A stretch of DNA of 64,000 nucleotides from an uncultured Erysipelotrichaceae bacterium (GTDB lineage Bacteria > Bacillota_I > Bacilli_A > Erysipelotrichales > Erysipelotrichaceae): the NCBI GenBank assembly GCA_947036815.1, contig CAMQRS010000001.1, forward strand, positions 1 to 64,000. Direction: 5' to 3'. The notes beneath the pieces were generated by a model. The model worked only from the letters and a program-made list of their open reading frames with translations, did not search any database and was not told the origin of the DNA. Shown piece by piece: positions 7,226 through 24,406 of this stretch (position 1 is the stretch's first letter; every line of letters starts with the position of its first letter). The translations under genes were made by a program, and so were the position numbers.

Positions 7226-7680
7226 ACTTCACCTTTTATCTTTTCTGTTAAAATCATTTCGCTTATTTCATTCGTCATCTCACAAAATAATTCAACTTGT
7301 TCTTTTGTATACTTTTCTTGTAATTTTAATGCTATGTTTTCTTCTCTTTTTCTCATTGTTTCCTTGTATAAATCCGAGTAATTATTAAGATTGGGAAATA
7401 AATAATGAATTCTTTTATCACTTTCACTTTGTACTTTATATACATATCCTTTTTTCTCTAAGTCTTTTATCTTTTGAGTAACTGCTGGCCTTGATACATA
7501 TAGTACATCTGCTATTTTACTTGCTGTATAAAATCCAGGATGCGATTCTATCATATCCAAATATAATAAATCATTAAATGTCATATTTAATAAAGTAGTA
7601 TCCGCATTTTGTAGTCTTAAGTCTGCAATAGCGAAATCATGAAATAGTTTATCTAGTGTTTTTTTTATCATCGTTGTCAT
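7222..7680 (-). CDS. MarR family regulator of the adjacent MATE pump
   Basis: A 152-residue winged-helix regulator. The recognition region is about residues 55-75 (ASKIADVLYVSRPAVTQKIKDL), followed by a wing with SESDKRIHYL. It is the first gene of a two-gene operon with the MATE transporter and overlaps it by four bases. Its own promoter carries a direct repeat flanking the -10 box (see 7708-7742), which suggests autoregulation relieved by a pump substrate. Ligand unknown. Confidence 0.85.
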   Translation of the reverse strand: MTTMIKKTLDKLFHDFAIADLRLQNADTTLLNMTFNDLLYLDMIESHPGFYTASKIADVLYVSRPAVTQKIKDLEKKGYVYKVQSESDKRIHYLFPNLNNYSDLYKETMRKREENIALKLQEKYTKEQVELFCEMTNEISEMILTEKIKGEV

Positions 7681-22861: not shown

Positions 22862-22897
22862 AAAAGACTCCAAGCAAAGATTTGCTTGGAGTCTTTT
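22862..22897 (-). terminator. Strong terminator after the signal-peptide gene
   Basis: A 17-base perfect stem (22862-22878 with 22881-22897) with A and T flanks, about 30 bases past the small peptide stop. Usable in both directions. Confidence 0.85.
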
Positions 22898-22929: not shown

Positions 22930-23103
22930 TTAGTCGAACCAAGATCCACCAGGTCCACCTGCTACTGCCTCTACTTCATGAATTTCACTACATGTATCAG
23001 TAGTGTGTACTCCAAACACATCAGATAATGGACAAATGCTAGGAATAATTAAAATTCCTACTAATAGTAGTCCTAAAAATGTAAACTTTTTATTTTTTTT
23101 CAT
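22930..23103 (-). CDS. Small exported peptide precursor, putative signalling peptide
   Basis: 57 residues (58 if the tandem ATG at 23106 is used). The N-terminus is a Sec-type signal: KKNKK followed by about 15 hydrophobic residues (FTFLGLLLVGILIIP). A polar linker and a small C-terminal end AVAGGPGGSWFD follow. AGAGGGG lies at proper spacing from 23103. Its promoter, with extended -10 TGATATAAT, and its terminator make it a separate transcript. It directly follows a TPR-type regulator, as in PlcR-PapR, Rap-Phr or AimR-AimP pairs. I infer it is the precursor of a peptide signal; a bacteriocin-like role is possible. Confidence 0.65.
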   Translation of the reverse strand: MKKNKKFTFLGLLLVGILIIPSICPLSDVFGVHTTDTCSEIHEVEAVAGGPGGSWFD

Positions 23104-23127
23104 CATAACCCCTCTTTTCTTAATTTA

Positions 23128-23136
23128 ATTATATCA
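23128..23136 (-). promoter_or_regulatory. Extended -10 promoter of the peptide gene
   Basis: Minus-strand TGATATAAT (TGn plus perfect TATAAT), about 20 bases before the ribosome site. The -35 is poor, as expected for an extended -10 or an activator-dependent promoter. Confidence 0.6.
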
Positions 23137-23149
23137 CCATTTTTTATAT

Positions 23150-23180
23150 AAAAAAGCATATCGAGAGAACATGCCTTTTT
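23150..23180 (-). terminator. Hairpin between regulator and peptide genes
   Basis: Arms AAAAAGCAT and ATGCCTTTTT pair with one mismatch around an 11-base loop, with a T-run on the minus strand. Probably a weak terminator of the regulator gene; it lies just upstream of the peptide promoter. Confidence 0.5.
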
Positions 23181-23212
23181 ATTTGAAAAAGACCATTTAA
23201 CTCATTAAAAAA

Positions 23213-24406
23213 CTACAAATTCTTCCCTTTCAATTCATGAAATTCATAAAAATTCTTATATCCACCCATTTCTTTGCAATTTTTTTTGATCTCCTCTTCA
23301 ATGATAAACATATATAAATAATCACTTCGAGTCAAATGGTCTCTTATAATTGTAAGTAAAACTTTATTTTTATCTTTAGCATCAAGTTCATAGTTTTTGA
23401 AATATGTATATAATAAAATATTAATTTTATTAGGAATCATTGTTATATCTAGATTAAGATAATTTTCATCAATTTTCTTCCCTAAATGTAGGCTACAAAA
23501 AATCGAATATATTTCAACTTGTACCATTCTTGATTGCGCAACATTTTTCATTTGATCAAGTAAATCTAGCGCTTTTTCATATTCTTTAGAAACGATTTCA
23601 TTAATTGCTAAGTTAGCTAATGCGCTATTTTTTTTAAATTGAGGTACCACGCTATCCTCTTCAATTAATAATTTATACAATTCATAATAGTAATCTTGGT
23701 AATTTTTTCCCATTTTCTTGCATAACTCTATAATATGGGGATAATAACCTACTTTAGCGATTACATTATCCTCTTTAATTCTTTCTTCAATGTCTGCTGA
23801 GAGTGAGAAAGCACAGGCATTATTGTAGAGATTGAGAGCGAAAATAAAACTATTAATTTGAACTATTAAATGTTTGGGCTCATAATATCTTATCTTATTA
23901 ATATCAAATTCAGAAGAAAATCCATCAATATTAAACTTATAACCAAATATAACGATGAGTAAGGAAAACAATTCTACTTCCATACATTCTTCCATACAAA
24001 AAAAGTCGTTTACTTCTTGTTCTTCTGGATGCTTTTTATTTCTATAATAATCATCAATTACTTTAACCCCTTGATATCTAAAATCATATAGTGCATTTTC
24101 TTTGTATGGTTCCAATATAGTTAACAATTTATCAACTTCATCAAGTATAGATTCTATTATTCCATATTCCATAAGTTTACTCAACACTGTATAATCCACA
24201 TCGAATTCTTCTGCTATTGGTCTATCTATTCTTTTAAATAAATTAGAGATGATTGCCTGCCTACCTCTAACAAAATCTCCATTGACAAGGCGATGGTACG
24301 TCTTGACAGTACATATTCTACTATCGTTTTTAGGATCAACACAAATTGATTTATACGTAAGGTTTAATTTCTTTCGATAGCATTCCAGTAATAATTCATA
24401 TTCCAT
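23213..24406 (-). CDS. TPR-type (RRNPP-like) transcriptional regulator of the adjacent peptide
   Basis: A 397-residue, mostly helical protein. The N-terminal 65 residues look like a divergent helix-turn-helix (TYKSIC...TVKTYHRLVNG). The remainder is a run of amphipathic helices with TPR-like spacing, for example SALANLAINEIVSKEYEKALDLLDQ at about 273-297. Size and architecture match RRNPP peptide sensors (PlcR, Rgg, AimR, about 290-400 residues). A small exported peptide gene follows 109 bases downstream. No prophage genes are nearby. No target is known; autoregulation of the peptide promoter is the simplest idea. AAAGGAG precedes the ATG. Confidence 0.65.
   Translation of the reverse strand: MEYELLLECYRKKLNLTYKSICVDPKNDSRICTVKTYHRLVNGDFVRGRQAIISNLFKRIDRPIAEEFDVDYTVLSKLMEYGIIESILDEVDKLLTILEPYKENALYDFRYQGVKVIDDYYRNKKHPEEQEVNDFFCMEECMEVELFSLLIVIFGYKFNIDGFSSEFDINKIRYYEPKHLIVQINSFIFALNLYNNACAFSLSADIEERIKEDNVIAKVGYYPHIIELCKKMGKNYQDYYYELYKLLIEEDSVVPQFKKNSALANLAINEIVSKEYEKALDLLDQMKNVAQSRMVQVEIYSIFCSLHLGKKIDENYLNLDITMIPNKINILLYTYFKNYELDAKDKNKVLLTIIRDHLTRSDYLYMFIIEEEIKKNCKEMGGYKNFYEFHELKGKNL

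Follow-up and report, generated by a model that had tools for sequence, protein, structure and literature searches.

A probably new RRNPP-like receptor-peptide subfamily, with a candidate GGPGGSWFD pheromone, at a chromosomal locus of an uncultured Erysipelotrichaceae bacterium

The window, a stretch of 64,000 nucleotides from an uncultured Erysipelotrichaceae bacterium, carries a two-gene locus on its minus strand, on which all window features given below lie. Its larger gene (23213..24406) follows a tmk-holB-PSP1-rsmI cluster and encodes a 397-residue putative regulator, or receptor, with an N-terminal divergent XRE-type HTH and a TPR-like helical solenoid, an assignment drawn from the open reading frame, an AlphaFold model, the family alignment and profiles. 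The HTH domain (residues 1-60; 24227..24406) comprises model helices 2-13, 18-21, 34-41 and 49-59, with ICTVKTYHRLVNG around the likely recognition helix, and its wider-family consensus is ICSxxTLxxIExG. The solenoid, as seen in the model and in fold searches, spans residues 73-397 (23216..24190) and contains about 16 helices. A hairpin followed by a T-run (23150..23180; -13.9 kcal/mol, z -6.1) closes the gene. A preliminary description had placed here a helical regulator with a divergent HTH and, downstream, a small exported peptide. Every element that it described lies where it was said to be, and the model and family profiles agree with its view of the regulator; it did not mention the strand or the hairpin after the regulator gene.

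The second gene (22930..23106) encodes a propeptide, MMKKNKKFTFLGLLLVGILIIPSICPLSDVFGVHTTDTCSEIHEVEAVAGGPGGSWFD, of 58 residues from the first ATG (23106) or 57 from the second (23103). The second ATG is better spaced from the Shine-Dalgarno sequence GAGGGG (23109..23114), and the gap to the regulator gene is 106 nt or 109 nt, respectively, the latter being the distance originally reported. The propeptide has a basic N-terminal end, a hydrophobic core, a spacer of Cys, His and acidic residues, and the tail AVA-GGPGGSWFD; its Sec-like signal sequence was assigned from hydropathy. Upstream lies an extended -10 element, TGaTATAAT (23136-23128), without a good -35 (the best candidate matches at 3/6 positions), and downstream an intrinsic terminator, AAAAGACTCCAAGCAAATCTTTGCTTGGAGTCTTTT (22862..22897; -23.6 kcal/mol, z -9.3), whose arms are complementary over 17 nt, of which RNAfold pairs 16. 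Because the hairpin with its T-run lies directly 3' of the regulator gene, the peptide gene appears to be its own transcription unit. Consensus scans of the locus listed neither the peptide promoter, since the scan requires a -35 element, nor the two terminators, since it requires a short loop; these features were read directly from the sequence and the hairpins were folded.

The regulator belongs to no Pfam or NCBIfam family, and the protein by itself gave no significant TPR or HTH match in Pfam. The AlphaFold model, built from a 28-member alignment (pLDDT 89.7, pTM 0.83), shows the HTH at residues 2-59 followed by about 16 further helices. Its best fold match in the PDB, a weak one, is Rap phi3T with its pheromone (Foldseek E 0.011, TM 0.57/0.62), and the top 50 include Rap pLS20, RapF, AimR, NprR and Rgg2. 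About 10 of these 50 are RRNPPA-type receptors; the others are TPR/PPR proteins, eukaryotic ones scoring similarly. When the family profile was compared with PDB sequences, it matched consensus TPR proteins (E 1e-39) and, over positions 13-81, the XRE-type HTH of PezA (E 5e-5). Eleven of the 28 family members match Pfam TPR_2, while matches to HTH_3 or HTH_19 are single and weak. The regulator had no sequence match to known RRNPP(A) receptors, in the PDB among the best 60 matches listed. The fold matches place the regulator in the TPR class, a placement compatible with, though not proof of, RRNPPA membership.

We searched for homologous regulators at three depths. As a single query, the window regulator matched proteins in five further genomes of the order; a seven-member alignment detected homologues in 39 of 316 genomes from this order, most of them belonging to the window's own family; and the 28-member profile, many of whose matches are partial, found them in 52 of 395 genomes drawn from the class, reaching other families. 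Of 60 family regulators, 19 have a signal-sequence open reading frame with an ATG and a ribosome site no more than 200 nt downstream; among 295 other genes of these stretches there are 2 such cases (Fisher p 2e-14, a nominal value uncorrected for the relatedness of the regulators), and one of the two control matches is a peptide that precedes a family regulator. An earlier, looser set gave 12 of 27 regulators and 0 of 202 other genes. The pairs occur in numerous genera and in two families or more, with gaps mostly of 88-120 nt, and their peptides share a basic start, a hydrophobic core and a hydrophilic tail. The preliminary description had staked its reading on a peptide frame being conserved next to homologous regulators, and signal-sequence peptides do recur there at a similar distance. 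The regulator-peptide pairing is not chance. For the remaining 41 regulators no such peptide was found within 200 nt, so the peptide mode need not hold for every member. Neither single-protein searches of relatives and of the order nor two contig scans revealed close relatives of the window's own pair.

The peptide tails differ by receptor clade. Those of the window's own clade end in GGSWFD, GGEFED (...HDGGEFED at locus L010) or HWIEG (...DRHWIEG at L011, where the peptide lies at +198 nt), one other clade has [ILVM]P-[LMI]PF/Y, and still others have CxxPxC. Further tails are ...GDNMKG (L012), ...ILYGGK (L014), CSSPDCMWQ, CTAPDCMFG and CSSPDCMFQ (L049-L051) and ...DPDVWFN (L052). A C-terminal C-x-x-P-x-C motif followed by 2-4 residues recurs in candidate pheromones of several receptor clades (L049-L051, L062, L108, L109 and L123), with CNKPGCNEA, CPGPGCDPS and CPQPLCKQL as additional examples. 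In another family of the class, a series of P-x-P-x-PF/Y tails adjoins ATP-synthase genes: as many as three consecutive regulators directly follow these genes (L112, L114, L116, L119 and L121), the peptide lies at +104-109 nt, and a conserved TACTTTTTATA element stands upstream of its promoter. The window bacterium itself holds what looks like a second complete system on contig C12 (L108:4845-7324), where two tandem family regulators, more distant from the window regulator than a paralogue described below, are accompanied by a 42-residue secreted peptide about 120 nt after position 7324; this peptide ends QFCSSPGCWVIA (tail ...CSSPGCWVIA).

Three species of the genus g58 keep the pair, and their peptide, with dN of 0.29-0.31 and dS of 1.6-2.6, is under purifying selection; the saturated dS values are rough, while the direction (dN < dS) is clear. 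One close pair in g44 gave a peptide dN of 0.03 and a dS of 0.10. In the g58 receptor, pN is 0.03-0.08 for the HTH and 0.25-0.34 for the solenoid, a pattern predicted for a solenoid that tracks an evolving ligand beside an HTH whose DNA recognition is preserved; this contrast is absent from a more distant g44 pair. Downstream of their peptide genes, the g58 species carry some 190 nt of non-coding sequence (L049:7450-7692, minus strand; L050:6207-6440; L051:6112-6345) that is foldable and conserved far above synonymous sites of the neighbouring codons. It had no match in Rfam and is possibly an undescribed structured RNA.

These data bear on the simplest alternative, that the peptide is a chance small open reading frame beside an orphan TPR regulator. 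In its favor, the window peptide has no detectable sequence relative, its best non-self match (E 0.002) lying inside a 476-residue frame. However, the frame is bracketed by a promoter, a ribosome site and a terminator, peptides are strongly enriched beside family regulators, and the g58 peptides are under purifying selection. The chance reading is already largely refuted, and we give it a very small probability.

We instead interpret the locus as an RRNPP-like peptide quorum-sensing cassette in which the peptide signals to the regulator, and we put the probability of this reading at about 0.8. By analogy with RRNPP biology, the 57/58-residue precursor would be exported by Sec and then cleaved, at the membrane or extracellularly, to release a short C-terminal peptide. 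GGPGGSWFD (codons 22933..22959), proposed from its position and from known propeptide layouts, is the most natural product because A-x-A directly precedes it (EAVA|GG); that it is the exact mature form we rate at about even odds. We also considered a lasso-type ring between Gly1 and Asp9 of GGPGGSWFD and rejected it, as maturation genes are missing from the neighborhood and the relatives' tails do not have the pattern. The short peptide would be re-imported by the Opp system and would bind the receptor within the groove of its TPR-like solenoid, changing its DNA binding. In family peptide promoters, the -10 box precedes the ATG by 19-30 nt and the -35 element is poor. Since most combine a good -10 with no -35, activation of the peptide promoter by the bound receptor, and hence autoinduction, is favored over repression, a preference that we hold with some confidence.

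The genome has an M50/RseP-type protease, and its contig C15 bears the only complete oppABCDF-type operon. The original view of the locus as a chromosomal module with no phage or Opp genes near it is right: its neighbors are nrdD, yitT, rsmI, the PSP1 protein gene, holB and tmk, and the Opp operon lies elsewhere in the genome. Also on C15, an OppC-like permease (L132:3283-5109) carries, after membrane helix 1 and ahead of the permease domain, a long insertion of repeats ('GNIYTWG..GEIYGWG') that by eye looks like an RCC1-type beta-propeller. In an alternative reading, the peptide acts at the membrane or within its producer, as in self-sensing of export or as a leader peptide, rather than between cells. 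Self-sensing is a discussed possibility for established RRNPP systems, and several of the homologous peptides are Cys-rich right after the hydrophobic core and might stay membrane-bound. Yet the peptides have ordinary Sec-like leaders and a hydrophilic tail of about 30 residues, the genome encodes a full Opp importer, and the peptide gene is followed by a strong terminator, whereas a pure leader peptide would precede a regulated gene. We regard this alternative as improbable, more so than an effector role for the peptide, which is weighed below.

The receptor may also act on distant targets, for which the first candidate is a locus on contig C19 of the same genome. This contig encodes a paralogue that is 38% identical to the window regulator and is its sister in the tree (support 100/99). 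The C19 receptor has no peptide gene beside it and precedes genes for a bacteriocin-type ABC exporter: a TIGR01654-like permease and an ATPase that scores above the TIGR03608 cut-off. The extended -10 starts 76 nt after the receptor stop in the window and 75 nt after it at C19; by eye, the two promoters share no operator beyond this equal offset. At L010, the order is receptor, peptide, small secreted protein, TIGR01654-like permease and an ATPase that narrowly misses the TIGR03608 cut-off. The small protein, of 114 residues, resembles lactococcin 972-type bacteriocins in position only and has no family match, and we dropped that assignment. One scenario is that the window and C19 loci are halves of an ancestral L010-like receptor-peptide-bacteriocin-exporter operon and that GGPGGSWFD drives both receptors. 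The ATPases of C19 and L010 are 55% identical; the BacIM-like permeases, however, showed no convincing similarity by BLASTP, and for this reason we treat the split-operon idea as a tentative possibility, somewhat doubtful in our estimate. If true, this one-signal model would tie an antimicrobial-export locus elsewhere in the genome to density sensing.

Loci of this kind raise the possibility that the peptide, instead of signaling, serves as a small secreted bacteriocin or another effector under the regulator's control, as the continuation of L010 into a secreted protein, a permease and a bacteriocin-export ATPase, and the presence of other ABC exporters at the family locus L014, might suggest. 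Against this, neither an exporter nor an immunity gene lies near the regulator and peptide of the window, of C12 or of the g58 trio, where the two genes stand alone. Moreover, the peptides keep a fixed distance from the regulator rather than trailing the exporters, their tails differ from one receptor clade to the next, and the bacteriocin-type operons, where present, hold a separate secreted protein. We consider an effector role unlikely. At L011 (8495-16001; genome G261), receptor and peptide are followed by a very large secreted protein, 2,500 residues or longer, that runs past the end of the stretch.

We compared the putative signaling cassette with known systems. PlcR-PapR of the Bacillus cereus group is autoinduced by the last few C-terminal residues of a propeptide of about 50 residues. 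It similarly combines an N-terminal HTH and TPR-type receptor with a Sec-type propeptide encoded by its own gene downstream, but it has no detectable sequence relation to the window pair, and PlcR has a five-TPR core whereas the solenoid here has about 16 helices. The PapR tail ADLPFEF is unlike GGPGGSWFD; the P-x-P-x-PF tails of a sister clade in other families are reminiscent of its LPFEF. NprR-NprX and Rap-Phr share the longer solenoid, provide the Rap phi3T and NprR fold matches noted above and, in Phr, place the signal tail after an A-x-A site as in the window peptide. The Foldseek E values are only 0.01-0.15, however, and neither was matched by sequence among the best 60 PDB matches listed. 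RRNPP(A) receptors carry an N-terminal HTH, all but Rap, from which the window regulator differs in having one. The arbitrium pair AimR-AimP has an HTH and a degenerate TPR solenoid of similar length and a propeptide gene directly downstream. It resides on temperate phages and regulates lysogeny, whereas the window pair is chromosomal, among housekeeping genes without phage genes, and the top list of a viral fold library search held no AimR-like match. Rgg-SHP and ComRS use a short hydrophobic propeptide lacking a Sec signal, unlike the window precursor with its Sec-like leader, and the window receptor has no NCBIfam match (Rgg is TIGR01716).

RRNPPA receptors have been divided into five-TPR and nine-TPR clans (PMC12700828). 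RRNPP_detector, as described in the main text of its report, yielded 21 new subfamilies in complete genomes, defining a system by a receptor of 250-500 residues, a propeptide of 10-100 residues and a gap of -60 to 400 bp (PMC10075063). Its novel clusters have the same two-gene layout and size definition as the window pair. The window receptor, at 397 residues with an all-helical solenoid in the model, falls within the range for a TPR-domain receptor, and the N-terminal HTH, the adjacent propeptide with an export signal and a ribosome site and the Opp system in the cell are each present. By default, according to the same text, the screen requires a TPR-HMM match at E<1e-5 (PMC10075063); the window receptor has none and would be missed. 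The main texts of the RRNPP surveys and literature, to which this comparison was confined, yielded no description of the receptor family; some distant members, especially of the P-x-P-x-PF group, may already be listed in survey supplements. The suggestion that the class could be new holds within these main texts and within Pfam and NCBIfam, and the receptor and peptide probably represent a new RRNPP-like subfamily with GGPGGSWFD as the C-terminal pheromone.

The family thus appears to add a whole receptor-pheromone subfamily, with pheromone tails unlike the known ones, to cytoplasmic peptide quorum sensing, in an order for which we found no described systems. Such systems are probably undercounted, because a standard screen misses receptors whose TPRs are this degenerate. 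We consider the finding to be of moderate to good interest since the receptor-peptide pairs that it brings to light can be tested directly. If the interpretation is true, it would supply a ready list of synthetic peptides for testing, linked to bacteriocin-type export loci.
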